DNA from: a bacterium
Lineage (GTDB): Bacteria; Myxococcota_A; UBA9160; UBA6930
Assembly (NCBI GenBank): GCA_024228115.1
Contig: JAAETT010000047.1
Coordinates: 1-35,005 of the forward strand
Length of the DNA: 35,005 bases
Direction of reading: 5' to 3'
Both the position numbers and the translations under genes were made by a program. Below the pieces are notes generated by a model, which was not told the DNA's origin, ran no database searches, and was given only the letters and a program-made list of their open reading frames with translations. Shown here in pieces: positions 9,633-28,067 of this stretch (its first letter is position 1; the number at the start of each line of letters is the position of its first letter).

Positions 9633-9845
9633 TCGATCAACTCCTGGGTACGACCCGGGCGAGTCTAGTAGATCGGGTGGCGACGTCTGGCCTCGGCTAG
9701 GTTCATGCGCAGTGCATCTGATGCGGAATACATCCTGCCGAACCGCTTCTCGTTCTCACCGCCCGGCTCCCGAGTGGTGGCCCCTCACACCCCGAGGGGA
9801 CGGAGGAAGGCACCTCCCCCTGCGGACCCCAGAACCCGCGCCCCG
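9633..9845. promoter_or_regulatory. Divergent intergenic region between two glycosyltransferase operons
   Basis: About 213 bases separate the divergent glycosyltransferase starts, so promoters for both the short minus-strand unit and the long plus-strand operon should lie here. I see a short inverted repeat GCATC-T-GATGC around 9717-9727, possibly an operator, but no convincing -35/-10 pair. An in-frame ATG at 9705 would place part of this region inside the next gene. Confidence 0.35.
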
Positions 9846-12926: not shown

Positions 12927-13700
12927 ATGAAGGTCGTCATCCTATGTGGAGGGCTCGGGACACGGCTCCGGGAGGAGACCGAATACCGGCCGAAGCCGAT
13001 GGTGCCCATCGGAGATCGTCCGATCCTCTGGCACATCATGAAGCTCTATGCCCACTACGGGCACAAGGAGTTCGTGCTCTGCCTCGGCTACAAGGGCGAG
13101 GTGATCAAGGATTTCTTCCGCAACTACCAGTGGAATACGAGCGATCTGACCCTGCGCCTCGGCCCGACCCCGGAGATCACCTACCACAACTCCCACGACG
13201 AAGAGGACTGGACGGTCACGCTCCTGGATACCGGCCTGGAGACCCAGACCGGCGGGCGCCTGCGCCGGGCCCTCGAGTATGTCGGCGACGAAACATTCCT
13301 ATGTACCTACGGCGATGGGCTGACGGATTGTGACGTCAACGAGGTCGTCGCCTTCCACGGTCAGCATGGCGGCCTGGCAACGCTGACAGCCGTGCGTCCC
13401 GTGGGCCGCTTCGGCGAGCTAGCGCTGGACGGCCAGACCATCACCTCCTTCCACGAGAAGCCCGAGAAGGAGAGCGCCTTCGTCAGCGGAGGCTTTTTCG
13501 TGTTCGACCCGAGCGTGGGCGACTACCTGGACGCGGATGAATCGATCCTGGAACGCGAGCCCATGGAACGGATCGCCGGTGAGGGCCAGCTGAAGGCATT
13601 CCTCCACGACGGCTTCTGGCAATGCATGGATACCTACCGCGAGCAGCAACTGCTGCACCAGATGTGGACCGAAGGCCGCGCGCCCTGGAAACTCTGGTAG
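12927..13700 (+). CDS. rfbF: Glucose-1-phosphate cytidylyltransferase
   Basis: 257 residues, the usual length for this enzyme, which makes CDP-glucose from CTP and glucose-1-phosphate. The nucleotide-binding signature GGLGTRLREETEYRPKPM is at residues 8-25 and is characteristic of the cytidylyltransferases rather than of the dTDP- or UTP-using relatives. Further matches are LCLGYKGEVIKDFF and a C-terminal QCMDTYREQQLL. A GGAG element lies six bases before the ATG. The 4,6-dehydratase gene starts three bases after its stop. Together they supply CDP-4-keto-6-deoxyglucose for the methyltransferase and epimerase that follow. Confidence 0.93.
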   Translation: MKVVILCGGLGTRLREETEYRPKPMVPIGDRPILWHIMKLYAHYGHKEFVLCLGYKGEVIKDFFRNYQWNTSDLTLRLGPTPEITYHNSHDEEDWTVTLLDTGLETQTGGRLRRALEYVGDETFLCTYGDGLTDCDVNEVVAFHGQHGGLATLTAVRPVGRFGELALDGQTITSFHEKPEKESAFVSGGFFVFDPSVGDYLDADESILEREPMERIAGEGQLKAFLHDGFWQCMDTYREQQLLHQMWTEGRAPWKLW

Positions 13701-13703
13701 GAG

Positions 13704-14798
13704 ATGTTCGGCGATGTCTTCCGGGGCCGGCGCGTCCTCGTCACCGGTCACAATGGCTTCAAGGGTGCATGGCTCTCCCTGTGGCTCCACGAACTGGGGG
13801 CGCGGGTAACGGGCCTCGCCTTGCCGCCCGAACCGTCGCCCACGCTCCACGAGATCCTGCATCCGGACACGTTCGAGGATGAGTTCGTCTGCGACATCCG
13901 GGATGCGGACGCGCTGAAGGGCACGCTGGCACGTGCCGCGCCGGAGATGGTCTTCCACCTCGCCGCGCAGGCGTTGGTGCGTCGCTCCTACCGTGAGCCG
14001 CGCCTGACCTTCGAGACCAACGCCCTGGGCACCCACCACCTCCTCGAGGCGGTACACGAGCTCGGCGTGACCGGGCCCGTCATCGTCGCCACCACGGACA
14101 AATGCTACGAGAACCACGGGGAGGGCCGGCCCTTCCGGGTAGGCGACCCCCTCGGCGGACGCGATCCCTACTCGATGAGCAAGGCCGCGGCGGAGTTGGT
14201 CGTGGCCTCCTTCCGCTCGAGCTTCCTCGACGGGCCAGCCGATCCTCCGGTTGCCACCGTGCGGGCGGGCAACGTGGTCGGGGGCGGCGACTACGGCGAA
14301 GATCGCCTGCTCCCGGATGCCGTGCGCGCGCTACTTCGCGGCGACCCTGTGCCCGTGCGCAACCCGCGCGCGGTTCGCCCCTGGCAGCACGTGCTGGACT
14401 GCCTGTCCGGCTACCTGCGCCTGGCCCAGGAACTGGCAACGACGCCGCGCGATGGAAATCGGGCCGATGCGTTCAACATCGGCCCGGCTCCCGAAGGTCG
14501 GCTCACCGCCTCCGAGGTCGTCGAGGCCTTCCTTTCCTGCTGGCCCGGGCGCTGGGAGGATCGCAGCGAGCCCGGCGCACCCTACGAGGCGCCCCACCTC
14601 GAACTCGACACGGCGGCAACGACCGCGGCCCTCGGATGGACCCCCGCCTGGGACGCAACGGAGGCCGTGGCCCGCTCGGCGGATTGGTACCGTGCCCGCC
14701 ACGAAGCCAAGCGGGACGATCTGCATGAACTCTGCCTGGAGCAGATTCGCGCGTGGACCGTTGACGCCACGCCTGCAACGCGGGGCCAGGCAACATGA
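13704..14798 (+). CDS. rfbG: CDP-glucose 4,6-dehydratase
   Basis: 364 residues, normal for this member of the extended short-chain dehydrogenase family. It converts CDP-glucose into CDP-4-keto-6-deoxyglucose using a tightly bound NAD. VTGHNGFKGAWLSLWLHEL (about residues 14-32) is the Rossmann Gly motif in the form typical of the CDP-glucose dehydratases. DPYSMSKAAAEL holds the catalytic YxxxK, and RAGNVVGGGDYGEDRLLPD is a further hallmark. It directly follows the cytidylyltransferase gene, with a GGAG-type ribosome site spanning that stop. Its own TGA overlaps the ATG of the C-methyltransferase gene (ATGA). Confidence 0.93.
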   Translation: MFGDVFRGRRVLVTGHNGFKGAWLSLWLHELGARVTGLALPPEPSPTLHEILHPDTFEDEFVCDIRDADALKGTLARAAPEMVFHLAAQALVRRSYREPRLTFETNALGTHHLLEAVHELGVTGPVIVATTDKCYENHGEGRPFRVGDPLGGRDPYSMSKAAAELVVASFRSSFLDGPADPPVATVRAGNVVGGGDYGEDRLLPDAVRALLRGDPVPVRNPRAVRPWQHVLDCLSGYLRLAQELATTPRDGNRADAFNIGPAPEGRLTASEVVEAFLSCWPGRWEDRSEPGAPYEAPHLELDTAATTAALGWTPAWDATEAVARSADWYRARHEAKRDDLHELCLEQIRAWTVDATPATRGQAT

Positions 14799-16021
14799 GC
14801 GTCAGCGCTTGCCGCTCCTGCGGCGCACCGGCGGCAACGCCCTTCCTGGATCTCGGGCTGCAACCCCTCGCGAACAACCTGCTACGCGAAGAGGACCTGG
14901 AGCAGCCTGAACCCCGCGTGCCCCTTCGCGTCTTCGCCTGCCCACGCTGCTGGCTCGTGCAGATCGCTGATGAGGTTCCGCCGCACGAGCTCTTCACCCA
15001 CTACCCGTACTTCTCCTCCACGTCCGCTGCGATGGTGGCCCACGCCCGGGAGGCGGTAGACCTCCACCGGACAGCGCTGAACCTCGGCGCGGACTCCTTC
15101 GTCGTCGAGATTGCCAGCAACGACGGCTACCTGCTGCAGCACTTCGCAGAACACGGCGTTCCATGTCTGGGGATCGAGCCTGCCACGAACGTGGCGGCCG
15201 AGGCCCAGAGAAGAGGCATCGACACACGGGTCGCGTTCTTCGATGCGGAGCTCGCCGATGTCATCGTCGGCGAGCGCGGCCCGGCCGACCTCGTGCTGGC
15301 CAACAACGTCTTCGCTCACGCACCGGACACGAATGAGTTCGTCGCAGGCCTGGCCAAGCTGCTCGCGCCCAGCGGCCGGGCCGTGCTCGAGTTCCCCTAC
15401 GCCTTCGACATGATCGACCGGATCGAATTCGACACGATCTACCACGAACATGTCTTCTACTTCACCGCCACGGCGCTGGCTCCGCTCTTCGCACGCCACG
15501 GCCTGGCCATGGTGGATGTAGAGCCGTTGGAACTCCACGGCGGATCGCTCCGCCTGAGCATCGCTCACGCCGGCGAGGAACCGACTCCGCGCATCGCTTC
15601 CCTTCTGGAGGACGAGCGGGCACGAGGCGTAGCGAACATTGGCACTTACGAGCACTTCGCCGCGGAAACGCGAGAGCTCTGCGGCGCGCTCGTGAAGCTC
15701 CTGGACGAACAGGCCGCGGCAGGCCATCGCCTGGCCGCCTATGGAGCCTCGGCCAAGGGCAGCACGCTGCTGAACGCCTGTGGTATCGGCGCCGAGAGGT
15801 TGGCCTTCGTGGCCGACCTGAGCCCCCACAAGCAGGGGCTCTACACGCCGGGAACGCACCTTCCGATCCTTCCCCCGGAGGCCCTGCGCGACCAGCAGAT
15901 CGACCGCACTCTCTTGCTGACCTGGAACTTCGCCGAGGAAATCCGCGCCCAGCAAAGCGAGTGGGAGCAGGCAGGCGGCCGTTTCGTGGTGCCGCTTCCC
16001 CGTCCGCGGGTGCTGACGTGA
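14795..16021 (+). CDS. NDP-4-keto-6-deoxyhexose C-methyltransferase
   Basis: 408 residues with the three-part layout of deoxysugar C-methyltransferases (TylCIII/TcaB9 type). The N-terminal zinc site has Cys6, Cys9, Cys49 and Cys52. The central SAM-binding Rossmann domain starts with VVEIASNDGYLL (about 103-114). The C-terminal substrate-binding domain contains the YHEHVFYF segment, with the His/Glu pair used for proton abstraction next to the keto group, and GASAKGSTLLNACG. Enzymes of this group add a methyl to C-3 of a 4-keto sugar nucleotide. The substrate here is most likely the CDP-sugar from the two preceding genes. Its TGA overlaps the GTG start of the epimerase gene. Confidence 0.9.
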   Translation: MSVSACRSCGAPAATPFLDLGLQPLANNLLREEDLEQPEPRVPLRVFACPRCWLVQIADEVPPHELFTHYPYFSSTSAAMVAHAREAVDLHRTALNLGADSFVVEIASNDGYLLQHFAEHGVPCLGIEPATNVAAEAQRRGIDTRVAFFDAELADVIVGERGPADLVLANNVFAHAPDTNEFVAGLAKLLAPSGRAVLEFPYAFDMIDRIEFDTIYHEHVFYFTATALAPLFARHGLAMVDVEPLELHGGSLRLSIAHAGEEPTPRIASLLEDERARGVANIGTYEHFAAETRELCGALVKLLDEQAAAGHRLAAYGASAKGSTLLNACGIGAERLAFVADLSPHKQGLYTPGTHLPILPPEALRDQQIDRTLLLTWNFAEEIRAQQSEWEQAGGRFVVPLPRPRVLT

Positions 16022-16545
16022 TCTTTCATGACACCACCCTGCCCGGCGTGCGCCACATCGAGCTCGAACTCAACGGGGACGAGCGAGGTTGGCTCGCGCG
16101 CACCTTCTGTGAGCGGGAGTTTGCAGAGGCCGGGCTCCCCATTCGCTACGCCCAGACGAGCGTGACCCGAACGCGCCTTCGGGGAATGCTCCGCGGGCTC
16201 CACTACCAGGCCGCGCCGCATCTCGAGGACAAACTCATCCGCTGCGCTCGCGGCCGGGTCTTCGACGTGGTCCTGGATCTACGCACGGAACTCCCGAGCC
16301 ACGGACGATGGGAATCGTTCGAGCTCGATGCCGAGGTTCCCCGCATGCTCTTCCTCCCCGCCGGAACGGCCCACGGATTCCAGGCGCTCACCGACGACGT
16401 CGAGATGACCTACCAGATGACCGAGCCCTATGTTGCCGAGCTCGCCCGCGGTGTGCGGTGGGACGACCCATCCCTCGGAATCCCCTGGCCGCTCCCAGAC
16501 CCGATCATCTCACAGCGAGACCGCGACTTGCCGGGGCTCGCCTGA
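16018..16545 (+). CDS. RmlC-like sugar nucleotide 3,5-epimerase
   Basis: 175 residues, close to the normal length for dTDP-4-dehydrorhamnose 3,5-epimerase and its relatives. TRLRGMLRGLHYQ carries the catalytic His, IRCARGRVFDVVLDLR the core beta-strands, and LPAGTAHGFQAL the second conserved His. Its position directly after a CDP-sugar dehydratase and a C-methyltransferase suggests it acts on the C-methylated CDP-4-keto sugar at C-3 and/or C-5 rather than in dTDP-rhamnose synthesis; no rmlA, rmlB or rmlD is present. The GTG start at 16018 overlaps the upstream TGA. No final 4-ketoreductase is adjacent, so that step must be supplied elsewhere or the 4-keto group is aminated. Confidence 0.88.
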   Translation: MIFHDTTLPGVRHIELELNGDERGWLARTFCEREFAEAGLPIRYAQTSVTRTRLRGMLRGLHYQAAPHLEDKLIRCARGRVFDVVLDLRTELPSHGRWESFELDAEVPRMLFLPAGTAHGFQALTDDVEMTYQMTEPYVAELARGVRWDDPSLGIPWPLPDPIISQRDRDLPGLA

Positions 16546-16546
16546 C

Positions 16547-17440
16547 ATGGCGGCCCCTCGCATCACGATCGGCCTACCGACCCGGAACCGGGCGAAGAGC
16601 CTCGACCAGACCATCCGCTGCATCTGTGAGCAGAGCTTTCGGGAGCTGGAGCTGCGTGTTTCGGACAACGCCTCCACCGACGAAACGGCACAGGTGATCC
16701 GCAGTTGGACTGCCGCCGACCCACGGATCCGTGCGACTCGTCACGAAGCGAACGTGGGACCCGCGGTCAATTTCGACGGCCTCCGCGAGAACGTCGAGAG
16801 CGAGTACTTCATGTGGCTGGCGGACGACGACGAAATCGATGCCAACTACCTGGAGACCTGCATCGCCTTCCTCGACGACCACCCTGGCCACACCCTGGCG
16901 GCCGGCGTGGCGACACTCGACAACGTGGCTGGCAATCGAGAAGGCACGGTCGTACCCGGCAAGCCGATGACCCTGGAGGAGGATCTGCCTGCGGCCCGGG
17001 TACAACGCTTCTACGAAGAGGTCGGAGACAACAGCACGTTCTATGGTGTCATGCGTCGGGAGGCTCTCGACCGGGTGATCGTGCGCAACACGCTGGGAGC
17101 CGACTGGTTGCTTGTCGCGGCACTCGCAGCCCAGGGACGGGTTCGTACACTCGAGAGCACCGGCATGCGGCGGCCCCACCGCTGGGGCCCCAGCAGCTTC
17201 CAGGAGATCCTGGCCACCCTGGAGCTCCCGGAACGCTGGGCCAAATTGCCCGGCTGGATCATCGCGCGCGACACCTTTCGTGACATCGCATGGAATTCGC
17301 CCTGCTTCGATGTGATCGCTCGCACGGATCGGCTCCTACTCGCGGCACGTTGCGCGCGCGCGGTATGCCGACGCTTCCGGATCTCGCCGCGCGACGTGCT
17401 GCGTTTCTACCTGTCGAACGCCGCGGCGGGTAGGCCCTGA
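16547..17440 (+). CDS. Family-2 (GT-A) glycosyltransferase
   Basis: About 297 residues. The N-terminus ITIGLPTRNRAKSLDQTI and the block LRVSDNASTDETAQVI are the classical family-2 nucleotide-binding start. WLADDDEIDANYLE (about 90-103) provides the metal-binding DxD. The rest is an Arg-rich C-terminus without clear transmembrane helices, so a peripheral inner-membrane enzyme is likely. The ATG at 16547 follows the epimerase stop by one base. It is the last gene of the plus-strand operon and may transfer the branched deoxysugar made by the preceding four genes. The convergent operon ends only 46 bases away. Confidence 0.88.
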   Translation: MAAPRITIGLPTRNRAKSLDQTIRCICEQSFRELELRVSDNASTDETAQVIRSWTAADPRIRATRHEANVGPAVNFDGLRENVESEYFMWLADDDEIDANYLETCIAFLDDHPGHTLAAGVATLDNVAGNREGTVVPGKPMTLEEDLPAARVQRFYEEVGDNSTFYGVMRREALDRVIVRNTLGADWLLVAALAAQGRVRTLESTGMRRPHRWGPSSFQEILATLELPERWAKLPGWIIARDTFRDIAWNSPCFDVIARTDRLLLAARCARAVCRRFRISPRDVLRFYLSNAAAGRP

Positions 17441-17486
17441 GGGCAGGCTTCAGTGCTCACCGGCTCCTGGATCCCTGGGAGAAGAG

Positions 17487-18152
17487 TCAGACCTCGTCGA
17501 CGAGGAAGGCCTTGCCCCAGCCGCGGAAGTTGCCCCACTCCTGCACCGTGATGCGGTCCGAGCCCTCGAGCCACTCGCGAAAGGCCCGCTGCTGACCGTG
17601 CTTCCCTGAGCCCCGGTAGCACCAGTAGTCATCCAGCAGCAGCCAGGTCCCCGTGGTCAAGTGCGGTTCGACGAACTCGAAGACCTGCTTCGACGATGAG
17701 TAGAGATCGCAGTCCACGAGACAAACGTGACACGGCCCCTTGCCCTCGAAGAAGTCCGGCGGGGTCGCGGGCAGAGACGCCTCGTAGAAGCCCTCCACAA
17801 GGGTGAGACGATCTCGGGGAATGCCGCGGGCGACCAGACCCTCGTAGACCCGATCTCGCGTGTCGCCCTTGACCGTTCCCGCGTCCCAGAAAGGCTGGAG
17901 GTCCTTGGCAGCCTGATCCGCCTGGCTCAGCTCGGGCAGACCCTCGAACGAATCGAAACCGACGTAGTGGCTGACGAGACCGCGGAGCGATTGGTACGCC
18001 TCCCACATCGAATCGCCGTTGAAGACGCCGAACTCGAGATAGTACCCTTCCCCCGCGCCCCCGTGATACAGGTGCTCGCGGATGAAACGATAGAGGTTGA
18101 GGCGACTCAGCACGTCTCCGTGCACGGTCGGGTCGTAGTACGGGTGGCTCAT
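17487..18152 (-). CDS. TylF/macrocin O-methyltransferase-like protein
   Basis: About 221 residues. YLEFGVFNGDSMWEAYQ (about 38-54) is the SAM-binding start. VCLVDCDLYSSSKQVFEFV and LLLDDYWCYRGSGKHGQQRA carry the acidic metal-binding residues of TylF-type O-methyltransferases, which methylate sugar hydroxyls in macrolides and glycans. The ATG at 18152 lies 24 bases after the stop of the neighbouring methyltransferase gene; longer upstream reading in this frame is only the shadow of that gene. It is the last gene of the eight-gene minus-strand operon. A methylated glycan sugar is the most likely product, but the acceptor is unknown. Confidence 0.85.
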   Translation of the reverse strand: MSHPYYDPTVHGDVLSRLNLYRFIREHLYHGGAGEGYYLEFGVFNGDSMWEAYQSLRGLVSHYVGFDSFEGLPELSQADQAAKDLQPFWDAGTVKGDTRDRVYEGLVARGIPRDRLTLVEGFYEASLPATPPDFFEGKGPCHVCLVDCDLYSSSKQVFEFVEPHLTTGTWLLLDDYWCYRGSGKHGQQRAFREWLEGSDRITVQEWGNFRGWGKAFLVDEV

Positions 18153-18175
18153 GGTTCTCCGCTGCCTCGCCGGGC

Positions 18176-19072
18176 TCAGTTGTGCTCGAGGAGTACGGCC
18201 ATGGCCCGCGGGCGGAATCGCTCGCCGGGTCGCCGGTCCCCGTCCGAGATCATCTCGGCAGCCCGAAGGCCACAGTCTTCCGCAAACCGGAGGACCTGGC
18301 TCTCGGTGTTGAATTCGTAGATATGGTCCTTCTGCGCTGACTCGAGGGCGGTGCTGAAAAAGGCGACGCCGTCTTCGGCGAGGTGATGCTTGACGGTCTC
18401 GAGCAAACTCTTCGGTTCCTGCAGGTGCTCGGCGACCATGGCCGCGATCACGCCTTTGTAGGTGCCAGGCTCGCCGGCCTGGTTGAGATCCAGCACGTCC
18501 TTGACCGCGAGTTCGACTCGGTCGCCGTGCTTGCTGACCCCGCGCAATCTCTCGGCGATCCCGATCGCCGCCGGGCTGATGTCGAAGCCCGTAACGTGGG
18601 CATCGTCTCGTTCCTCGGCGGCCAGGAGGCCCATCACGCCGTGTCCGCAAGCCAGCTCGAGCACGCGAGGATCCTCGCCCAGACTCCCCAGGAATCGGTC
18701 TCGAAAGAAGCTCAAGTGGCGGACCATCGACGGCCAGTAGGGATAGATCAGGACCGCCGCCCACATGTAGGGGATCATGTACTCGGGGTCCTGGTAGACT
18801 TCCTCGGTCACCTCCGCGAGTTCGGCCTCTGTGAATACCCCGGACTTCTCGTACTTCCGCTGCCGCGTGGTGACGTCGATGCAGTACCGGGCGTAGCCCT
18901 TGGCGGCCAGCTCGAAGGCCTCGTCGCCGTAGGCATCCTGCGTCCATCGGGCCAGCGGGTCCAGCAACCAGGCACAATCCTCTTCGTGGATCGCGACGTT
19001 CTGCATCACCGCCGGTGCGAACATCTTGGCGTTCTCCTGCAGGGCCTCGAGGAAGCGCGTTCCCTCTTTCAT
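18176..19072 (-). CDS. Class I SAM-dependent methyltransferase
   Basis: About 298 residues. A helical N-terminal ~125 residues of unknown role precedes the SAM-binding domain: VLELACGHGVMGLLA as motif I, VTGFDISPAAIGIAERL as motif II, and GVIAAMVAEHLQEPKSLL in the substrate-site region. The ATG at 19072 overlaps the TGA of the LuxC-like gene (ATGA), a coupling that links this methyltransferase to the acyl-reduction genes. It could methylate the acyl unit, a sugar, or an intermediate bound to the carrier protein. Nothing in the sequence decides among these. Confidence 0.8.
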   Translation of the reverse strand: MKEGTRFLEALQENAKMFAPAVMQNVAIHEEDCAWLLDPLARWTQDAYGDEAFELAAKGYARYCIDVTTRQRKYEKSGVFTEAELAEVTEEVYQDPEYMIPYMWAAVLIYPYWPSMVRHLSFFRDRFLGSLGEDPRVLELACGHGVMGLLAAEERDDAHVTGFDISPAAIGIAERLRGVSKHGDRVELAVKDVLDLNQAGEPGTYKGVIAAMVAEHLQEPKSLLETVKHHLAEDGVAFFSTALESAQKDHIYEFNTESQVLRFAEDCGLRAAEMISDGDRRPGERFRPRAMAVLLEHN

Positions 19073-20343
19073 CTGTCCTCCTCGATGGTCTCCGCGCTGG
19101 GTGTGAACTGGACCAACCGGCACATGGGCCGCACCAGGTCTCGTCCATCCCAGGGAGTTCCGAAGTTGTGCATCCGCCCGAGTTTGACCACGCGGTCGAT
19201 GCCTCGCGTGGCCGCCACGCGGGCCACCCGGGCCTCGAGGGCAGGGGCTCCGAAGCCGGTTCCCAGGGTCTGAACGCCACCGTCCAGGCCGGCCAGGACG
19301 GCCACCAGATCCTTGACGACCTGAATCCGAAGGGTGCGGCCGCGGATGGGCTCCGCGAGTTCGGCGCCCTCTCCCACCAGCAGTGTCCAGTCCGGGGTTT
19401 TCGGGTACTCCGCCCAGTGCCCTCCTTCCGCCGTGAGCCAGGCCGCCCGACCGGCGAGGATGCGCCCGGTTTGGGCCGGGGCGATCGAGTCCCGGGGATG
19501 CAGGCGGTTCTCCTCCGCACAGGTGTCCCGCAGGAGCCCGACGAACCTGCGGAGTGCCTCGTCGTTCGCAGCGGCGTCCGCCTGCAGGTAGAGGGTGATT
19601 GGTGAGGAGCAGGCCTCCTGGTCGAACTGCCAGAGATCCCGGACCAGCCGGCGAGCCCAGACCGCGGCGCCCGCTCCGGCCCAGGTCGCGGCATCCATCA
19701 TGGCGACGGAGACCCGGGGCCCGAACACCTGCAGGTGAGCCCAGTGGGGAAAGGGTAGAGCCCGCACCGTCAGCACCGCTTCTTCACCGCCCCATATCAT
19801 TGCGGCGTCCGAGGCCTCCGCCACCGCCGCGGCGACGGCCTGGTCTTCATGAGGGAAAGTGAGAAAGAGATTGCGCGCCAGGAAGTCCTCGCCCCCCGGA
19901 CACGCGGCGGCGCACTCGAGCAGGCGCTCGGTATCGGCGACGAGTTTGTCGGGAACTCGGACGAGCCCGTGATTGCCCGCGAGCATCCCCGCCGTCAGTG
20001 AGAGGAAAGGCTGGACCCCGACGTTCCCGGCGGTCCAGTGGAAGACCGTGCCGACGGGCCGCACGAACCGGCCGTGCTTGTCGAGCTCACCGCGGAATAC
20101 CGCAGGGCCGTTCTCGCCAAACTCTCGCCGAATGACGCCGAGCAAGGTCTGCTCCCGCAGCCAGAGGCGGAGGAATGGCAAACCCAGGACGTCTCCCAGG
20201 TCGGCCTCGGCCATGGCGGCAGACCAGGCAGCGAGGAAATCGAGGGTGCCCTGAAATTCAGGGACATCCAACGCGGCGTGGGTTTGGGCCGCCCGGAGCG
20301 CCTCGAAGGCGGCGGGCTCTTCGATGGCGTGGATTCGCTTCAC
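19069..20343 (-). CDS. LuxC-like acyl-CoA/acyl-protein reductase
   Basis: About 424 residues, slightly shorter than LuxC of luminous bacteria. It has the aldehyde-dehydrogenase-like fold of fatty-acid reductases that reduce an activated acyl group to an aldehyde with NADPH. FHWTAGNVGVQPFLSL (about 101-116) is the nucleotide-binding region. QEACSSP (242-248) carries the catalytic Cys245 that forms the acyl-enzyme. The GTG at 20343 overlaps the TGA of the LuxE-like gene, which favours it over a start upstream. Direct coupling with LuxE-like, acyl ligase and carrier-protein genes argues for reduction of a carrier- or enzyme-bound short acid. No luciferase genes are present, so bioluminescence is not the function. 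Confidence 0.88.
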   Translation of the reverse strand: MKRIHAIEEPAAFEALRAAQTHAALDVPEFQGTLDFLAAWSAAMAEADLGDVLGLPFLRLWLREQTLLGVIRREFGENGPAVFRGELDKHGRFVRPVGTVFHWTAGNVGVQPFLSLTAGMLAGNHGLVRVPDKLVADTERLLECAAACPGGEDFLARNLFLTFPHEDQAVAAAVAEASDAAMIWGGEEAVLTVRALPFPHWAHLQVFGPRVSVAMMDAATWAGAGAAVWARRLVRDLWQFDQEACSSPITLYLQADAAANDEALRRFVGLLRDTCAEENRLHPRDSIAPAQTGRILAGRAAWLTAEGGHWAEYPKTPDWTLLVGEGAELAEPIRGRTLRIQVVKDLVAVLAGLDGGVQTLGTGFGAPALEARVARVAATRGIDRVVKLGRMHNFGTPWDGRDLVRPMCRLVQFTPSAETIEEDR

Positions 20344-21461
20344 GAGGTGATCGCCCGCCGGGAGGCATAGACATTGCCACAGCCGCGGACTTCGGATTCC
20401 GGCGCCCGTCCAATGAAGCGGAAGGCCGGGCCCCGCCGACCGCATTCGCAGCCATCGGGCTCTACGACGCGGCCCAAATCCTCCGTGAGCAACGCATGAC
20501 CGGGGAAGCTCGTCGGTAACGCGCTACAGACCTGGAGCAGCCCGTCCTCCCCCGGCGCGGAAGGCTCGAGGGTCAACGGATCTCGGATCAAGACCTCGGC
20601 GAACGCCGGGGCGTGCTTGTGGCCCGCGCGGCAGTCCGGGTAGATGACCCCGACGTTCTCGACCATGCCGTAGAAATCGATCACCCGGTCCGGGGTGCAC
20701 CCGAAGACCTCGGCCACACCCGAGGTCAGGGTCGCCTTGTCCACAGAACGCTCTTGCAACTTCTTCCAGCCTCCGCTGTGCAAGACGTGAACGTCCGGGA
20801 GGTCCAACCGGACTCCTGCCTTCCGCAGGGGTTCCACGAGGTGCAACCAGAGGATGTATGTGAAGCCGTAGACCAGTACCGGCCTACCTCGGTGGGCGTC
20901 GGCGAAAGCCTGGATGGTGTCGAGATCCAGCGAGAGCCCCCCGGCATCGTCAGAGGTCATGCAGTAGGTGGATTCCGAGGCGAAGGGCATGAGACCCTGA
21001 ATGGCGGCGCCCCGAGCCCCCAGCCGGGCGGCGTTCGCTCCGGCGACGTCGGCTACCAGGTAGGGGCGGCGCTCCTTGCCGATGAAGTCGGCGGTGATCG
21101 CCGCCACCCCCTTGCTCATCCGCTTGGAGGTCTCGCGATCGAGGGCGATGCTACTGGGCACCTGGCCCGTGGTCGCACTCGATTGCAGGACCCGGACGAA
21201 CCGCTCAGGTTCGACGAAGGCGAGCGGTGGGTCCTGTTTGAATGCTGCCACCGGGAGGAAGGGAAGGTCGGCGATGGTCGCGGCCTGTTCGGGCTTCCGC
21301 GGCTCGTGCGCATAGTAGTTCGCCAGGCCCGGGTGGGAAGCTGCGCCCTCACGGATCAGGTCTCGGAGGACCGGGAAGAGGTGGGCGGCCTTCTCCGCGG
21401 GCTCGGATCCATAGACAGGCCGGGCCAGAAGTTCCTTGATTCGCTCGCTCAGCTCGGGCAC
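20340..21461 (-). CDS. LuxE-like acyl-protein synthetase
   Basis: 373 residues, the normal size for LuxE. This ANL-superfamily branch activates a carboxylic acid with ATP and passes it to the reductase. LQSSATTGQVPSSIALD (about 92-108) is the adenylation P-loop. IDFYGMVENVGVIYPDC (about 261-277) is the family's adenylate-binding segment. CECGRRGPAFRFIGRAPES lies near the end, where the family has a Cys/Gly-rich loop. It overlaps the acyl ligase gene by 13 bases at its start and the LuxC-like gene by 4 bases at its end. Having a LuxE and a separate AMP ligase/ACP pair in one operon implies two activation steps or two acids. Confidence 0.88.
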   Translation of the reverse strand: MPELSERIKELLARPVYGSEPAEKAAHLFPVLRDLIREGAASHPGLANYYAHEPRKPEQAATIADLPFLPVAAFKQDPPLAFVEPERFVRVLQSSATTGQVPSSIALDRETSKRMSKGVAAITADFIGKERRPYLVADVAGANAARLGARGAAIQGLMPFASESTYCMTSDDAGGLSLDLDTIQAFADAHRGRPVLVYGFTYILWLHLVEPLRKAGVRLDLPDVHVLHSGGWKKLQERSVDKATLTSGVAEVFGCTPDRVIDFYGMVENVGVIYPDCRAGHKHAPAFAEVLIRDPLTLEPSAPGEDGLLQVCSALPTSFPGHALLTEDLGRVVEPDGCECGRRGPAFRFIGRAPESEVRGCGNVYASRRAITS

Positions 21462-22936
21462 AGGGCCGCCTCCACAGCCTTCCGGACCTCATTCCGGGCC
21501 GGTTTCCCACTGCCCGTTCGGGGGATCTCCGGAACCACATGGATTCCCGCCAGCCGCCACTCGGCCGGAAACGCACCGCGGAGTCGCTGTTCGAGCTCTA
21601 GAACATCCTCGTCGCCTTCGGGGACGATCAAGAAGCCGGCGGCCTCCCCCGTCTCCGGGTCGGCAACGCCAGCGACGGCACAGTCGCGGATACCTGGGTC
21701 CTGTCGGGCGAAGTCCTCGAGTTGGACGAGGCCAACCCGGCGCCCCCGAAACTTCAGGAAGCCGCCCTTGCGCCCGCGGATCGCGATGCCGCCGCCAGAG
21801 TCTTGCACCACGAGGTCACCGGTGTGCAGCCAACCCCCGGAGAAACGCTCTGCGGTCTTGGCGGGATTCTCCCAATAACCTGAAGTGATCGATCCGCCTC
21901 GTACGCAGAGCTCTCCGAGCTCACCCGGGCCGACATCGGCGCCGTCCTCGCCAACCACCCGCGCCTCGAGACCCGGGAGAAGCTCCCCGACGTAGCCCGC
22001 CGGGTATTCGTCATCTTCGATCCGCAGCGAGGTAATCCGAGCAGTGGCCTCCGTCTGGCCGTACATCACGTAGAACGCGGCCTGTGGAAAGGCCACGCGG
22101 TATCGCTCGACCACGTCGAAGCCCAGAGGCCCCCCGGCCTGCAGGAACCGGCGCATGGACGGAAGCGACCGGGAGAAGAGGCCAGACCGATCTTCCAGGA
22201 AGCGATACGCGGTCGGGACGCCGGCGAAGGAGGTGCAGCCATGCGTGCCGATCGCGTCGAGGACCTTGTCGGGGAACATGAACCGATCGTCCAGGACGAC
22301 CGCGCCTCCGGCCATCAGGTGGGAGTGGAAGACGCTGGCCCCGAAGCAGTAGCTCAACGGAAGAACGAGCATGGCTCGGTCTTCTGGGACCAGGCCCTGG
22401 GTCGCCACGATGCCCCGGGTGTTGGCGAGCAGGTTGTCATGACTCACCACCACGAACTCTGGTTCGCCGGTGGAGCCGGAGGTCATCATCAAAGCAGCGG
22501 GGGCCGTCGCGGGCCCAGGGGCGACGCAGACCTCGCCGTGAGGCTCCAGGGCCGCGGCCGTCGCGGGGCAACCTTCGGGGCCGAGGTCCAGATCCTTCTC
22601 CCGCGAGCACCAATACGCCGCGGGACGGGCCTTGGCGACCAGCGCTTCCCGCCGGCGCTTGAGCTCGACCCGCTCGACGGGAACCACCACGGCGCCGCGA
22701 TAGATCGTCGCCATGTAGGTGACCGCGGTATCGACGTCCAGGTCCGCCAGCAGCAGGACCCGGTCGCCAGGGGCCACGCCAGCGGCCTGCATCCGCGCGG
22801 CCCGTGCCTGTACCGCGGCGCCGAGCTCGGAACCGGTGAGGCTCTGGTTACGTCGGGCGTCGACCAGGACAACGCCGGTACCGAGGCCCTCGATGAGGGT
22901 TCCCGCGAAATTCCCGGCAGGGCCAGCAGCGCTCAC
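21449..22936 (-). CDS. AMP-dependent acyl ligase
   Basis: 495 residues of a complete ANL-family adenylating enzyme. The P-loop LMMTSGSTGEPEFVV is at about 168-182. YVMYGQTEATARITSL carries the conserved YGxTE, and GGWLHTGDLVV holds the ribose-binding Asp. The C-terminal lid includes RTGSGKPARNEV with the catalytic lysine. The GTG start at 22936 overlaps the TGA of the acyl carrier protein gene, so this ligase most likely loads an acid onto that carrier protein. Its substrate is unknown. In the Vibrio cholerae O1 rfb cluster, a ligase, carrier protein and LuxC/LuxE-like protein are grouped in the same way for the tetronate side group. Confidence 0.88.
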   Translation of the reverse strand: MSAAGPAGNFAGTLIEGLGTGVVLVDARRNQSLTGSELGAAVQARAARMQAAGVAPGDRVLLLADLDVDTAVTYMATIYRGAVVVPVERVELKRRREALVAKARPAAYWCSREKDLDLGPEGCPATAAALEPHGEVCVAPGPATAPAALMMTSGSTGEPEFVVVSHDNLLANTRGIVATQGLVPEDRAMLVLPLSYCFGASVFHSHLMAGGAVVLDDRFMFPDKVLDAIGTHGCTSFAGVPTAYRFLEDRSGLFSRSLPSMRRFLQAGGPLGFDVVERYRVAFPQAAFYVMYGQTEATARITSLRIEDDEYPAGYVGELLPGLEARVVGEDGADVGPGELGELCVRGGSITSGYWENPAKTAERFSGGWLHTGDLVVQDSGGGIAIRGRKGGFLKFRGRRVGLVQLEDFARQDPGIRDCAVAGVADPETGEAAGFLIVPEGDEDVLELEQRLRGAFPAEWRLAGIHVVPEIPRTGSGKPARNEVRKAVEAALCPS

Positions 22937-23169
22937 TTCTTGTAGGTCCCAACGATCCGCTGGATGGCCGCGACGGTCTCCATCTCCATGATGTCGTCGA
23001 CCTCGAAGCTGACGCCGAAGACTTCTTCGAGCTTGCCGACGAGTTCGACATGACCGAGGGAATCCCAGCCCTCGATATCATCCGGCTCGGCCTCGAGGGT
23101 GACCTTCTCGGGCGGGGTCTCGAAGGCGTCGGCAAAGGCCTTGCGGACCCCCTCCAGTATCTCGTCCAT
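22933..23169 (-). CDS. Acyl carrier protein
   Basis: About 78 residues, a typical carrier-protein length. GWDSLGHVELV contains Ser37, the expected attachment site for 4'-phosphopantetheine. The rest is acidic and helical, as in ACPs (MDEILEGVRKAFADAF at the start). The ATG at 23169 was chosen over an in-frame ATG at 23220 because the extra 17 residues are not part of the fold and would overlap the upstream gene. It is translationally coupled to the acyl ligase gene. It probably carries a dedicated acid for the LuxE/LuxC-like enzymes or for transfer to a sugar, rather than serving in general fatty-acid synthesis. Confidence 0.92.
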   Translation of the reverse strand: MDEILEGVRKAFADAFETPPEKVTLEAEPDDIEGWDSLGHVELVGKLEEVFGVSFEVDDIMEMETVAAIQRIVGTYKK

Positions 23170-23207: not shown

Positions 23208-23942
23208 CTATTTGATGCACCGTAGGTAGCCGTCGGGAGCCACCGTGAGCTGGATCTTGTCGACGATGGCGGCATCGATCTCGAACCGATCCGTCGTCGC
23301 CAGGAATTCGTGGACGGCTGTCTTCGGGCTGTCGCCGGGCCCCCAGGGCTTCCCCTCGCTGAGGTGCGCCGGCATGTCCTCGACCACGGTATCGCAGACC
23401 ACCATGTAGCTCCCCGGGGTAACGAATGGCGCGTAGAGTTCGAGCTCCTTCATGACATGCTCGTGGGTGTGGTTGGAATCCAGGCAGACGAGGATCCGCT
23501 CCTTGCCGACGGCCAGCTCCCTCACCTGCGCCAGGACCTCAGCCGAAACCGACGAGCCTTCGACCAAGTCGACCCGGTGGAAGAAACGGTTCTGCTCCAT
23601 CTCGGCACGGTTGTGGCCACGGATGTCGATGTCGATTCCCAGGACTCGCCCGTCCCCACCCATGAGCTCCAGGAGGGAGGCGTAGAAGAGAATCGAACCG
23701 CCCCGGGCAACCCCGGTCTCGATGATCAAGTCGGGCTGGACCTTCCAGGCGATCTCTTGCATCGCCATGACGTCCTGCGGGTATTGGATGATGGGCCGGC
23801 CCATCCATGTGAAGTTGTAGACGTATCCGAAGGGCGCGGCCTTGATTGCCCACTCCAGGATCTCCTCCCGAAGCTCAGGGTGCTCCCCGAGGGCCGCGAT
23901 GTTGCGACGGACCTCGTCACGGAAGCGCTCGTTCTCGCCCAC
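23208..23942 (-). CDS. CmcI-like/rhamnosyl O-methyltransferase family protein
   Basis: 244 residues matching the CmcI/rhamnosyl-O-methyltransferase family, whose characterised members include cephalosporin-biosynthesis CmcI and glycopeptidolipid sugar methyltransferases. WMGRPIIQYPQDVMAMQE precedes LIIETGVARGGSILFYA (about 73-89), the SAM-binding loop. LVCLDSNHTHEHVMKEL holds metal-site acidic and His residues, and KPWGPGDSPKTAVHEFL is the conserved C-terminal block. It ends 38 bases before the carrier-protein start and is in the same operon. A sugar O-methyltransferase fits the context best. Confidence 0.88.
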   Translation of the reverse strand: MGENERFRDEVRRNIAALGEHPELREEILEWAIKAAPFGYVYNFTWMGRPIIQYPQDVMAMQEIAWKVQPDLIIETGVARGGSILFYASLLELMGGDGRVLGIDIDIRGHNRAEMEQNRFFHRVDLVEGSSVSAEVLAQVRELAVGKERILVCLDSNHTHEHVMKELELYAPFVTPGSYMVVCDTVVEDMPAHLSEGKPWGPGDSPKTAVHEFLATTDRFEIDAAIVDKIQLTVAPDGYLRCIK

Positions 23943-23986: not shown

Positions 23987-24619
23987 CTACACATTTCTGT
24001 CGCTGGGCGATATCTCCAGTACGATCACCTCACGGGCCTCTGGACTCCCAGCGGGACCAGAAGGCACCGCGTAGCGCTCGATTTCTCGCATGCCGATCCG
24101 GCGATGGAGCCAGCGGGCTCCCACGTTCTCGGCCAGGACCCGGGCCCGCGCAACCGCTAGACCAAGCTCACCGAAGCAGAACCCCAGTACCGCACGCTCG
24201 ACGTGGAAGAAGAAGCTCGGTGGGCCGCCGGTGATCCCCAGGATTCCGTTATCGAGTTCGGCGGACTCGGCCGTGATTTCGCACAGGCCGTACTGCCCGA
24301 CCAGTTGCTCCGAGGCGTCGTAGACGAGGAACATGACCCGATCTGGCCTTGCCAAAACGGTCTCCAGCCAACCCCGGGTGCTGGCGACCGAGGAAACCGA
24401 CTGATCCACGAAGAATTCGCGGTAGGCATTTCGCCAGGCGCAGAGGGTATCGAGCAGGTCAGAGGCCTCTAGATCCTCGCCGGTCACAGGGCGGAGCCAT
24501 CCCAGGGATTGCCCCTCGAAATCCTGGACCGTGATGCGCGTCTCGGCAGCCACGCGAGCCGGCTCGGACTCCGTGGAGTCCGACGCGCCAGTCGTGGATT
24601 CGGCATCGGGATCGGTCAT
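23987..24619 (-). CDS. GNAT-family N-acyltransferase
   Basis: About 210 residues. After a Ser/Glu-rich leader of ~45 residues, the fold looks like a GNAT acetyltransferase. There is a WRN-containing helix (LCAWRNAYREFF), then MFLVYDASEQLVGQYGL strands. A helix follows (AVLGFCFGELGLAVARA) near the acyl-CoA pocket, then ENVGARWLHRRIGMREIER, which is typical of the GNAT end (N-x-A-x-x-hhx-x-x-G). It resembles PseH-like and ribosomal-protein acetyltransferases used on amino sugars. A GGAG motif at 24629-24633 supports the ATG at 24619. As first gene of the operon, it could transfer the acyl group made by the downstream ligase/ACP/LuxE/LuxC enzymes onto an amino sugar. Confidence 0.75.
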   Translation of the reverse strand: MTDPDAESTTGASDSTESEPARVAAETRITVQDFEGQSLGWLRPVTGEDLEASDLLDTLCAWRNAYREFFVDQSVSSVASTRGWLETVLARPDRVMFLVYDASEQLVGQYGLCEITAESAELDNGILGITGGPPSFFFHVERAVLGFCFGELGLAVARARVLAENVGARWLHRRIGMREIERYAVPSGPAGSPEAREVIVLEISPSDRNV

Positions 24620-24917
24620 GGCGTTCGGCCTCCAGTAGGAGGTGCTGGAGCCTATCAATCCGCCCTGCCAACGCTTCACTTTCCCTCGCACTCGCCTGAC
24701 ACGACGATGCCTGCACGGACGAGGCCACCCCGGGACTGCGCAGTTCCGCTACCCCCGACCGCTGGAGGGAACTGGCCGAGTCTGTAGACTGAGGCGCCGC
24801 AGTGCCGGGTTTCCGTGGAGTCGGCAACCCGAAATCTGCACCCTCCTGCATCCCGGTAGACTACGTGTGCGAAAGCGCGGCGCCCGCTTGTTCCATTTCG
24901 CGGCTCGGAGGCCTGAG
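24620..24917. promoter_or_regulatory. Divergent leader region between the acyl operon and the aminotransferase
   Basis: This is the longest gene-free stretch (298 bases). It should contain promoters for the minus-strand acyl/methyl operon and the plus-strand aminotransferase gene. Near the GNAT start, CCTCC-AGTA-GGAGG (24629-24642) can form a hairpin that includes the GNAT ribosome-binding site. The hexamer TAGACT occurs twice (24785 and 24857), but without a convincing -35 partner. An in-frame GTG at 24867 is an alternative start for the aminotransferase. Confidence 0.4.
24907..24911 (+). promoter_or_regulatory. Ribosome-binding site deciding a TTG start
   Basis: GGAGG lies six bases before the TTG at 24918. 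It fixes the start of the aminotransferase gene, where there is no nearby in-frame ATG and the protein family begins at this point. Confidence 0.7.
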
Positions 24918-26045
24918 TTGGATCTGATTCCCGTCGCCGGGCCCTGGATCACGCAGAGAGAAATCGAGGCCGTCACCGACGCAGCCACGAACGCGTGGTA
25001 CGGCGAAGCGAACACCTACAACCAACGCTTCGAGAGCGCATTCGCGAGCTACGTGGATCGCCGCTACGCCTTGAGCCTGCCGTCTTGCACCTCGGCGCTT
25101 CATCTCGCGCTGCTTGCTCACGGGATCGCTCCTGGCGACGAAGTCGTGCTTGCAGACGTGAATTGGATCGCATCGTCCGCTCCGATCCAATATGTGGGAG
25201 CCACGCCCGTCTTCGCGGACATTGAACGAGACTCATGGTGCCTTTCCGCCACGTCGCTTGAGGCGTGTGTCACGCCCAGAACGAAAGCCGTGATCGTCGT
25301 GGACCTCTACGGAAACATGCCCGACTGGGATGCGGTGCTGGCGGTCGCCGAGCGCCACGGCATCGCCGTCATCGAAGATGCAGCCGAATCCGTCGGCGCT
25401 ACCTACGGAGGGCGAATGGCTGGATCCTTCGGCTCCGTGAGCACGTTCAGCTTTCATGGCTCGAAGACGCTCACGACCGGTGAGGGCGGAATGCTGGTCA
25501 CGGACTCCAGCGAAATCCACGCCCGCTGCAGAGTGTTATGCGATCACGGACGAGACCCGGGAGACCGGTTCTTCTACAACCAGGAAGTCGCCTACAAGTA
25601 CAAGATGTCGAGCCTGCAGGCGGCGCTTGGAAACGCTCAACTCGAACGCATCGGCGAGATCATCGAACGCAAGCGAATGATCTTCTCGTGGTATCGCGAA
25701 GAGTTGGGTGCCGAGACCGGACTCACCCTCAACGCAGACCTTCCGGGTGTGGAGAGCAGCTACTGGATGATCACTGCGGTATGGCGCCCCGAACTCGGCC
25801 TCGACAAGCGCAAGGCCATCGAGCTCTTGCGCGAGCGCGGCATCGACTCGCGTCCGTTCTTCCATCCGCTGAGTTCGATTCCCGCGTATCAGGGCACCCC
25901 GCAGGCCAAGGCCGCAGCCGAGCGAAACCAGGTCGCGTATTCCGTGGCGCCGTATGGGATCAACCTGCCAAGCGCGCTGAACCTGACCCGTGAGCAGGTC
26001 ACATACGTATGTGAGCACGTACGCGCCCTCGTACGCGGAGCTTGA
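24918..26045 (+). CDS. DegT/DnrJ/EryC1/StrS-family sugar aminotransferase (1)
   Basis: About 375 residues, standard for PLP-dependent sugar-nucleotide aminotransferases that aminate a 3- or 4-keto sugar. LPSCTSALHLALLAHGI (about 54-70) is the PLP-phosphate site. VIEDAAESVGATYGGR holds the cofactor-pairing Asp. SFHGSKTLTTGEGGML carries the Schiff-base Lys. The start is the TTG at 24918 with a strong GGAGG. It is divergent from the acyl/methyl operon and followed 16 bases later by a sulfotransferase gene. A 4-amino sugar made by this enzyme could be the acceptor for the GNAT acyltransferase. Which keto sugar it uses cannot be read from the sequence. Confidence 0.9.
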   Translation: MDLIPVAGPWITQREIEAVTDAATNAWYGEANTYNQRFESAFASYVDRRYALSLPSCTSALHLALLAHGIAPGDEVVLADVNWIASSAPIQYVGATPVFADIERDSWCLSATSLEACVTPRTKAVIVVDLYGNMPDWDAVLAVAERHGIAVIEDAAESVGATYGGRMAGSFGSVSTFSFHGSKTLTTGEGGMLVTDSSEIHARCRVLCDHGRDPGDRFFYNQEVAYKYKMSSLQAALGNAQLERIGEIIERKRMIFSWYREELGAETGLTLNADLPGVESSYWMITAVWRPELGLDKRKAIELLRERGIDSRPFFHPLSSIPAYQGTPQAKAAAERNQVAYSVAPYGINLPSALNLTREQVTYVCEHVRALVRGA

Positions 26046-26061: not shown

Positions 26062-26787
26062 ATGAGCCACCCCTTCGTCCTGCTCGCCACCCAACGCACC
26101 GGTTCCAGCGTCGTCTGGCGCACGCTCGACACCCATTCCTCCGTGTATGCCCGCGGCGAGATGTTCATGAAGCGGATGGAGCATCCGGAATCGTATGCCG
26201 CTGCCCTCGGCCGCCCCGGCCAGCGGCTCCTCGCCCGGCTCTCACCCGCCTGGAGCGTGCGGCGCTACCTGGACCAGTTCTACGCCGATCGGCCCGAGAC
26301 CACGGCGATCGGCTTCAAGCTGATGTACAGCCAGCTCCAGCCGGAGATCTGGCGCTGGATCGAGACGCACGAGGCCCGGGTGCTCCACCTCGTGCGGCGC
26401 AACGCCCTCAAGATCCTGATTTCGAAGGCGGCCGCCGAAGCGACAGGAATGCGACACCTGACACCCGGGGAACAGCACGAGCCGCAGCCCGTCAGCCTCG
26501 ACGTGGCCTCCCTCGGCTCGAGCCTCGACCGGATCACCTCGCGGGTAGAAGCCCACCGGGCGCGGATCGCAGCGCTGCACCACCTCGAAATCACCTACGA
26601 AGAACTTCTCGACGAACCCCAGGCCCTCTTCGATCGCTGCTTCGGTTTCCTCGGCGTCGAACCCCGGCCCGTCGAACTCGCCCTGCGCAAACTCACCCCG
26701 AACACGCTGCGCGAAGCACTCGCCAATTACGATGAGGTGGCCTCGGCACTCGAGAACACGCCACATGCTGCGCTGCTCGAGGCCTAG
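26062..26787 (+). CDS. Sulfotransferase-family protein
   Basis: 241 residues. FVLLATQRTGSSVVWRTL (about 5-22) is the phosphosulfate loop in the QRTGSS form used by many bacterial carbohydrate sulfotransferases. VLHLVRRNALKILISKA (about 111-127) is the 3'-phosphate-binding segment with Arg and Ser in the expected places. ITYEELLDEPQALFDRCFGFLG is a C-terminal block common to this group. It starts 16 bases after the aminotransferase stop, probably as one transcript. It is the fifth sulfotransferase-like gene in the locus and has intact donor-site motifs. Confidence 0.82.
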   Translation: MSHPFVLLATQRTGSSVVWRTLDTHSSVYARGEMFMKRMEHPESYAAALGRPGQRLLARLSPAWSVRRYLDQFYADRPETTAIGFKLMYSQLQPEIWRWIETHEARVLHLVRRNALKILISKAAAEATGMRHLTPGEQHEPQPVSLDVASLGSSLDRITSRVEAHRARIAALHHLEITYEELLDEPQALFDRCFGFLGVEPRPVELALRKLTPNTLREALANYDEVASALENTPHAALLEA

Positions 26788-26813: not shown

Positions 26814-26843
26814 CGCCCCTGGATCACAGACCACCCTGGGGCG
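26814..26843. terminator. Hairpin between convergent genes
   Basis: CGCCCC (26814-26819) pairs with GGGGCG (26838-26843), with a further TGG/CCA pairing inside. It sits between the convergent ends of the sulfotransferase and SGNH genes and overlaps the SGNH stop. It may end transcription in both directions. There is no T-run, so this is a weak call. Confidence 0.3.
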
Positions 26844-28056
26844 TGTTCGAAGCCGCCCCCTGATCCTCCACTTCGATCGATGCGATGCCGTCGAACATCC
26901 GTGTCGTCGCGAGGCCACTATCGTGGCTCAGGAAGATCACGTCGCTGAACTCCAGTTGGTCGAGGAAGGAAGTGAAGAATCCTTTCCATTCCCGGGGCTG
27001 GAGGTGGTTGAGGTTCACGTGCACGAGTTTCTTGAACCCCGGTGCCAGGTGTCGGGCGAGAGGCTTGCCGAACGAATCGGTGAGCAGAAGCGCACTCCGG
27101 TCGCTCAGCGGATCGGTCGAGTTCCAGGTCGAAAAGCCGCGTGCCCGCTCGTAGTATTCCCGCACCACCTCGGGATTGCGAGGATGGTAGTCGAGCCCCT
27201 GGGCGGCATAGGGAAAATCCCAGACTTCGATGCGACGAAAGAATCCCATCATGACCAGATCCGCCCGGGCCTCGATCCGCTGGGCGCCGGCGCCGAACTC
27301 CGCGCTCACGGGAACGCCCATCTTCTCGAGCAGTCCCCTGGCAAAGACATGCGTGCTCATCCCATTCCAGTGGAAATTCTCCTTGGGGAAGAAGGCCCGT
27401 TCGTTCCGACGCTGCATGAATTCGGCGAACGGATAGTGGAAGACCCGGCCGCTGGACGGCTCGATCCCAGCCTCGAGGCGCGGCCTGATCGGGCTCGCCG
27501 CGTAGGCCTCACAAGCGGCTCGGGTTCCCGCCGACACCTTCTGGGGTAGATGCTCCGGGTAGAGGCCGGGTTTCGTGACCGCCACCCCGAGGCTCACCCG
27601 ATAGCCTCGCGCCTCCAGCCAGCCGAATACCCGATCGATCTTCCCGGCCAGTTCATCGCTACGAGCGTCTTCCGTCTCCGGGGCGCACAGCGCTTCGATC
27701 CCGTCGTTGAGATACACGAAACCCTGGGTCCCCGCCCGGACGTCGTCTACCGGATCATCGCCGAAGCCGTAGAACATGACCTGTCTCAGGAGCCGGTTGG
27801 CAGCGAACGCAAAGCCAACGTGGTCATCCAGGTAGTCTCCAACGGCAGCAAAATAGTTCGGCGCTTCCAACGGGCCGCGCCAGACAGGAAAGGCCGCGAG
27901 CTCTCGCTTCTCCATGCGGGCTCGCTCCTCGCCGTCGCTGAAGGGTGCGGTGATCACGGGCATCGAGAGCACGGCCACCATCCCCATCAACCCCGCCCGT
28001 GCAGCTCTGGAGAGTCGGACTTCGCGCGGCCCTCGGCCATTCGTGGATGAACCCAT
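26824..28056 (-). CDS. AlgJ/AlgX-like SGNH-type O-acetyltransferase partner
   Basis: About 410 residues. One N-terminal hydrophobic segment (about 21-38) probably anchors it in the inner membrane, facing the periplasm. Motifs resemble the AlgJ/AlgX family that works with AlgI: GTQGFVYLND (about 109-118), ENFHWNGMSTHVFARGL (about 226-242, matching the DxHW block) and LLLTDSFGKPLARHL with the GDSx-type Asp and Ser. The family's catalytic Asp before His is Asn227 here, which may lower or change activity. The ATG at 28056 lies 11 bases after the MBOAT gene stop, with a GAGG element upstream. Together they probably acetylate a glycan at the membrane. Confidence 0.75.
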   Translation of the reverse strand: MGSSTNGRGPREVRLSRAARAGLMGMVAVLSMPVITAPFSDGEERARMEKRELAAFPVWRGPLEAPNYFAAVGDYLDDHVGFAFAANRLLRQVMFYGFGDDPVDDVRAGTQGFVYLNDGIEALCAPETEDARSDELAGKIDRVFGWLEARGYRVSLGVAVTKPGLYPEHLPQKVSAGTRAACEAYAASPIRPRLEAGIEPSSGRVFHYPFAEFMQRRNERAFFPKENFHWNGMSTHVFARGLLEKMGVPVSAEFGAGAQRIEARADLVMMGFFRRIEVWDFPYAAQGLDYHPRNPEVVREYYERARGFSTWNSTDPLSDRSALLLTDSFGKPLARHLAPGFKKLVHVNLNHLQPREWKGFFTSFLDQLEFSDVIFLSHDSGLATTRMFDGIASIEVEDQGAASNTPQGGL

Positions 28057-28067
28057 TCCAGGAAACC

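Follow-up and report, generated by a model that had tools for sequence, protein, structure and literature searches.

Why should a bacterial glycan locus hold genes of the LuxE and LuxC families when no luciferase gene (luxA or luxB) was found in the window, the whole stretch of 35,005 nucleotides analysed here? The genes in question lie on the minus strand, where those for an acyl carrier protein (ACP), an AMP-forming acid ligase, a LuxE-like synthetase, a LuxC-like reductase and a methyltransferase overlap their neighbours head to tail by 4, 13, 4 and 4 bp, respectively (Table 1). The first four had been described in an initial annotation of this DNA as coupled, overlapping genes without luciferase, and the overlaps and Pfam matches bear this out. 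The order along the strand is GNAT, CmcI-like, ACP, ligase, LuxE, LuxC, methyltransferase, TylF-like, all above the Pfam cut-off; given its 23-bp gap, the TylF-like gene is probably on the same transcript as the cassette. The operon has three methyltransferases (after LuxC, TylF-like and CmcI-like), the C-methyltransferase at 14795-16021 being on the other strand. Two or three, plus the GNAT, had been noted as additions, with the iron alcohol dehydrogenase (Fe-ADH) missing, and these points hold as well: neither an Fe-ADH nor an SDR gene was found in the window, and three Fe-ADH matches occur elsewhere in the same genome.

Table 1. The cassette and neighbouring sugar genes, in window coordinates.
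Feature	Position	Strand	Evidence and remarks
Sugar-1-phosphate nucleotidyltransferase	12927..13700	+	Pfam NTP_transferase 9e-20; also in L044, L046
CDP-glucose 4,6-dehydratase	13704..14798	+	NCBIfam TIGR02622, 406 bits vs cut-off 278
NDP-sugar C-methyltransferase	14795..16021	+	Pfam Methyltransf_13/14
RmlC-like sugar epimerase	16018..16545	+	Pfam dTDP_sugar_isom 1.4e-55
TylF-like sugar O-methyltransferase	17487..18152	-	Pfam TylF 6.6e-9; 23 bp gap to neighbour
SAM-dependent methyltransferase, 298 aa	18176..19072	-	Methyltransf_23 1.2e-16; directly after LuxC
LuxC-like acyl reductase, 424 aa	19069..20343	-	Pfam LuxC 2.1e-36; PDB 7xc6 LuxC
LuxE-like acyl-protein synthetase, 373 aa	20340..21461	-	Pfam LuxE 1e-54; PDB 7xc6 LuxE
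AMP-forming acid ligase, 495 aa	21449..22936	-	Pfam AMP-binding 5.6e-60 + C-terminal domain
Acyl carrier protein, 78 aa	22933..23169	-	Pfam PP-binding 1.3e-8; overlaps ligase 4 bp
Rhamnosyl O-methyltransferase/CmcI-like methyltransferase	23208..23942	-	Pfam RMNT_CmcI 1.6e-84; 38 bp upstream of ACP
GNAT acyltransferase, candidate N-acyltransferase	23987..24619	-	Pfam Acetyltransf_3 1.1e-7
DegT/DnrJ sugar aminotransferase (LegC/PseC-like)	24867..26045	+	Pfam DegT 8.5e-106; NCBIfam LegC, PseC matches below cut-off

The residues expected of working enzymes are in place. The ACP has its phosphopantetheine site (GWDSLGH), the adenylating-enzyme motifs SSATTG, YGMVE and LTEDLG of LuxE are intact, and Cys361 of LuxE, in a C-terminal RGCG, is conserved and matches in position the acylated cysteine of luminous LuxE. 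The catalytic cysteine motif of LuxC, FDQEAC (DQxAC), is likewise conserved, and the best PDB sequence match of both proteins is 7xc6, the LuxE/LuxC complex; in assigning roles to the two cysteines we follow what is established for luminous LuxE and LuxC. Because both the adenylation motifs and the C-terminal cysteine are conserved, LuxE is probably still able to adenylate an acid, despite the separate ligase in the operon.

Comparison loci of the RfbN and luminous types came from 395 genomes of the Aeromonas order, searched with the Pfam LuxE profile. In two of these (L158 and L159) an ACP, a 473-aa ligase, an Fe-ADH and an 825-aa LuxE-LuxC fusion reproduce the RfbKLMN architecture, and it is by this architecture that we label them RfbN-type; the search over the 395 genomes also gave three luminous operons. 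The LuxE tree places the window next to the RfbN-type fusions (SH-aLRT 94), with luminous LuxE outside the glycan-type clade. Luminous LuxC is outside in the LuxC tree also, where the RfbN-type fusions fall inside the clade but group with loci other than the window. Forcing the window together with luminous LuxE is rejected (AU p 0.034, a test limited by long branches and quick trees), and the NCBIfam luminous cut-offs are missed widely, with 53 vs 550 bits for LuxE and 40 vs 750 bits for LuxC. On the trees, the absent luciferase and these cut-offs, luminescence or the supply of fatty aldehyde was rejected as the role of the cassette, and the kinship with RfbN-type rather than luminous proteins proposed in the initial annotation is supported, more closely by the LuxE tree than by the LuxC tree. 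The window's ligase is 28% identical to those of the RfbN-type loci, as against 37-43% within its own subclade.

An alignment search with LuxE listed more than 500 relatives among its matches, in named genomes of many bacterial phyla. For the best 80 of these loci, genes were called with our own script and labelled with profiles built from the window and related proteins; 78 were analysable for gene order. LuxE has the ligase as its immediate upstream neighbour in 72 of the 78 and LuxC as its immediate downstream neighbour in 72; an ACP is no more than 4 genes away in 63, and an SDR accompanies the set in 49. The pairwise distance matrices of the four proteins (LuxE, LuxC, ligase and ACP) are correlated with one another, r being 0.69-0.87 (Mantel p ~0.002). 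Because the order is conserved and the distances of the four proteins correlate, the four-gene set is, on this comparative evidence, a real unit that appears to be jointly inherited. Separate LuxE and LuxC genes, taken at the outset to be unusual, are the rule, occurring at nearly every locus examined. Nor is the set itself undescribed: ACP, FabG, AMP synthetase, luxE and luxC have been reported in Aeromonas group II flagellin islands (PMC7874193), the same gene families in flagellin glycosylation islands of Enterobacteriaceae (PMC4875605) and a similar set in that of Dickeya (PMC7575072), the authors of these studies suggesting a liposugar or fatty acid role (PMC7874193, PMC4875605, PMC7575072).

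The expected linkage to glycan genes proved common and not universal. At least one recognised glycan gene is present at 58 of the 78 loci, and several of the others are short contigs or belong to a Clostridium group, in which the cassette adjoins genes for 4-hydroxybutyryl-CoA dehydratase.

Some irregular copies were seen along the way. The LuxE relative at L040 (G179:C12) has two in-frame TGA codons, is split over two frames and is probably a decayed copy. At one locus (L165), separate LuxE and LuxC genes occur together with a fusion of the two that is 767 aa long (7523-9827 and 16615-18918), and it seems that the fusion arose more than once. The genome of the window has a second LuxE-LuxC pair (G000 contig C586, L006:9751-12067), which follows an aminotransferase gene near a SUF operon, and a pair similar to this one occurs in the same-genus relative L041. 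That the cassette is a mere duplicate of this second pair was considered and rejected, the two being only distantly related.

The closest relatives of the window are the loci L043-L048, from Acidobacteria, Verrucomicrobiota and Magnetococcales, whose LuxE proteins are 53-58% identical to that of the window; a literature search found no published description of this subclade. A methyltransferase of one family follows directly after LuxC in 7/7 of its members, with 49-55% identity. Judged from these sequences, this position of the methyltransferase is what defines the subclade and the enzyme is a fixed partner, in keeping with its original inclusion in the set. With an AlphaFold model of the enzyme (pLDDT 79.5), the only matches were small-molecule methyltransferases of a general kind, UbiG, MitM and RebM among them. 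Several members of the subclade have an SDR gene, and a FabZ-like gene is present in L043, L044, L045 and L047, the assignment having been tested for L044 and extended to the others by sequence similarity. Among 84 loci, the sugar C-methyltransferase is found at comparable strength only in the window, L044 and L046 (Fisher p 0.0004), as is the nucleotidyltransferase, which suggests that these three have a common branched 6-deoxy sugar.

Around the cassette the locus encodes five glycosyltransferases, a nucleotidyltransferase, two DegT aminotransferases, an MBOAT protein and a MatE-type transporter, together with a CDP-glucose 4,6-dehydratase, the C-methyltransferase and an RmlC-like epimerase. 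The nucleotidyltransferase is probably a glucose-1-phosphate cytidylyltransferase, and the DegT/DnrJ aminotransferase beside the operon is a candidate source of an amino sugar. A sulfotransferase-like gene (26062-26787) and a pair consisting of the MBOAT gene and one for an adjoining 385-aa protein without a Pfam match (26824-29447) perhaps add further acyl or sulfate decoration to the glycan. The locus is bracketed by two tRNA-integrase sites facing outwards: at the left end an integrase gene (231-1637) overlaps tRNA-Asp (1543-1619), and at the right end another (33126-34433) overlaps tRNA-Val (33115-33188). The G+C content is even across the window, at 0.63-0.69, and a mobile island of foreign composition was rejected on this ground.

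Clues to the acid that the set handles come from its relatives. The cholera O1 tetronate route was reportedly proposed from sequence in 1995, and the literature searched contained neither a biochemical test of that route nor a substrate test for any member of the set. The perosamine of V. cholerae O1 carries tetronate, a dihydroxy C4 acid (PMC3441752, PMC4772473); the ligase gene wbeL (WbeL = RfbL) is predicted to be necessary for tetronate, and its loss removes the O1 antigen (PMC3441752). The flagellin of A. piscicola AH-3, a strain whose island has the ACP-FabG-ligase-luxE-luxC genes, carries an unassigned unit of 102 Da (PMC7874193). The residue that we compute for this unit from the reported 1491.5 Da is 102.05, against 102.03 for dihydroxybutanoyl (C4H6O3), an arithmetic match that other isomers could also give; no paper assigning it to dihydroxybutanoyl or to LuxE/LuxC was found in the literature searches.

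The Clostridium loci provide a non-glycan setting. In eight species (L050, L051, L053, L054, L056, L058, L064 and L065) the four genes adjoin one for 4-hydroxybutyryl-CoA dehydratase, assigned for L053 by its match to 1u8v (E 6e-247) and for the other seven by matching sequence starts. Most also have a 4-hydroxybutyrate CoA-transferase gene (3eh7, 3gk7), and a gene for a small NifU-like protein adjoins as well. Two of the eight have a SucD-like succinate semialdehyde dehydrogenase; the remaining six have no close relative of it, their best matches reaching 39-44% identity. The link may be one of neighbourhood only, because a regulator-like gene often stands between LuxC and the dehydratase gene; no paper connecting LuxE/LuxC with 4-hydroxybutyrate was found in the literature searches.

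Wherever a product is known or suggested, then, the analogies (tetronate, the 4-hydroxybutyrate genes of Clostridium and the 102-Da unit), indirect as each of them is, point to the C4 class. Because two separate acid-activating enzymes share one carrier, we infer a substrate with two carboxyls.

About evenly balanced, in our judgement, is the proposal that the operon uses its dedicated ACP to modify a small acyl group, a dicarboxylate being loaded, reduced and methylated before an amino sugar receives it, probably as the decoration of a surface sugar. The AMP ligase would load a small dicarboxylic acid, likeliest a C4 acid resembling malate or succinate, on the ACP through one carboxyl; LuxE would adenylate the other and hold the acyl group on Cys361, from which it would pass to the LuxC cysteine for reduction with NAD(P)H to the aldehyde. 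The omega-hydroxy acid would then be formed by a reductase; no gene for an aldehyde reductase is in the window, and this enzyme would be encoded elsewhere in the genome here but would be an Fe-ADH or SDR in the relatives. The enzyme encoded after LuxC would methylate the acid, and an acyltransferase, possibly the GNAT, would attach it to an amino sugar to whose synthesis the DegT enzyme would contribute. Sequence backs the presence of the enzymes, their catalytic residues, the inheritance of the genes as a group and the RfbN-type kinship, while the substrate, step order, methyl target and acceptor are the inferred portions of the model, within which the final transfer to an amino sugar is plausible. 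Somewhat more tentatively, the cassette may be a dicarboxylate reductase that works on carrier-bound substrates and is widespread, giving glycan loci and the Clostridium 4-hydroxybutyrate loci alike a natural way to omega-hydroxy C4 acids (2,4-dihydroxybutyrate or 4-hydroxybutyrate); the window's variant would methylate the product before its transfer to the sugar.

The same enzymes might be put to a different use if the ligase loaded a monocarboxylic acid on the ACP, the SDR and FabZ-like enzymes of the relatives adjusted it, and LuxE and LuxC released an aldehyde that was then transaminated or condensed with a sugar. The SDR and FabZ-like genes of the closest relatives favour such hydroxyacyl-ACP chemistry, which they suit equally with a simple dicarboxylate, but both are absent from the window. 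Split transketolase genes (N and C halves) adjoin the cassette at 9 of the 78 loci (L038, L070, L072, L086, L094, L098, L168 and others), and their products might use the aldehyde as acceptor, which would also be in keeping with a released aldehyde. However, such a scheme leaves LuxE's own adenylation site unexplained beside a separate ligase and does not fit V. cholerae tetronate, and we consider it possible but rather unlikely.

Luminous LuxE and LuxC act on myristate, and a medium or long fatty acid could be handled in the window too, a lipid-like chain being put on the glycan. A FabZ-like gene lies nearby in the relatives, and the same genes have been read as fatty acid synthesis (PMC7874193, PMC4875605). 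Yet the window's proteins fall outside the luminous branch and far under the luminous cut-offs, no chain-elongation gene (ketosynthase) occurs in the window, and C4 acids are both what V. cholerae is known to make and what the products of the neighbouring Clostridium genes act on, all of which make a fatty substrate decidedly improbable. Hardly credible is the notion that a general aldehyde-supplying LuxE/LuxC pair simply happens to sit in a glycan locus: the second pair beside the SUF operon might encourage it, but it is contradicted by a gene order conserved across phyla, by the joint inheritance of the four proteins and by the fixed methyltransferase partner of the subclade.

The earlier interpretation is partly supported, being right in outline for a set that is widespread and already described. 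New are the methyltransferase-bearing variant, the Clostridium 4-hydroxybutyrate link and the comparative case that the substrate is a C4 dicarboxylate. If the model is true, one enzyme line explains the cholera O1 tetronate route, the Aeromonas 102-Da unit and the Clostridium LuxE/LuxC set, and the window adds a methylated variant common to distant phyla. Hydroxy-C4 acids would then also have a carrier-bound route in nature, of a kind that engineers have had to design; according to a 2017 paper, 2,4-dihydroxybutyrate had until then lacked any described natural route (PMC5481828).

Set beside the luminous luxCDABE operon, the cassette has the LuxE and LuxC families and their catalytic cysteines in common, but it lacks luxA, luxB and luxD, has its own ACP and ligase, and occupies separate branches in both trees. 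It resembles the RfbKLMN(O) genes of V. cholerae O1, the proposed 3-deoxy-L-glycero-tetronate set, in combining ACP, AMP ligase, LuxE and LuxC functions within a glycan locus, and its LuxE and LuxC lie in the same clade as the RfbN-type fusions. In contrast to that system, LuxE and LuxC are separate genes in the window (4 bp overlap) and fused in L158 and L159, the Fe-ADH is absent, the operon has three methyltransferases and a GNAT, and a CDP-glucose dehydratase and C-methyltransferase take the place of a perosamine route.

The Aeromonas group II set (orf1 ACP, orf2 FabG, orf3 AMP synthetase, luxE, luxC) and those of Enterobacteriaceae and Dickeya resemble the window in having separate LuxE and LuxC in the same order, beside glycosyltransferases and sugar genes (PMC7874193, PMC4875605, PMC7575072). 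The window has four of the five genes of the Aeromonas operon, without the FabG-like SDR; unlike the flagellin islands, no pseudaminic acid or flagellin gene was found in it, and it adds the methyltransferase right after LuxC. The subclade loci L043-L048 have the same ACP-ligase-LuxE-LuxC-methyltransferase order, L044 and L046 also having the C-methyltransferase and nucleotidyltransferase in common with the window; most of these relatives have an SDR or FabZ-like gene, in place of which the window carries those for CmcI, TylF and GNAT.
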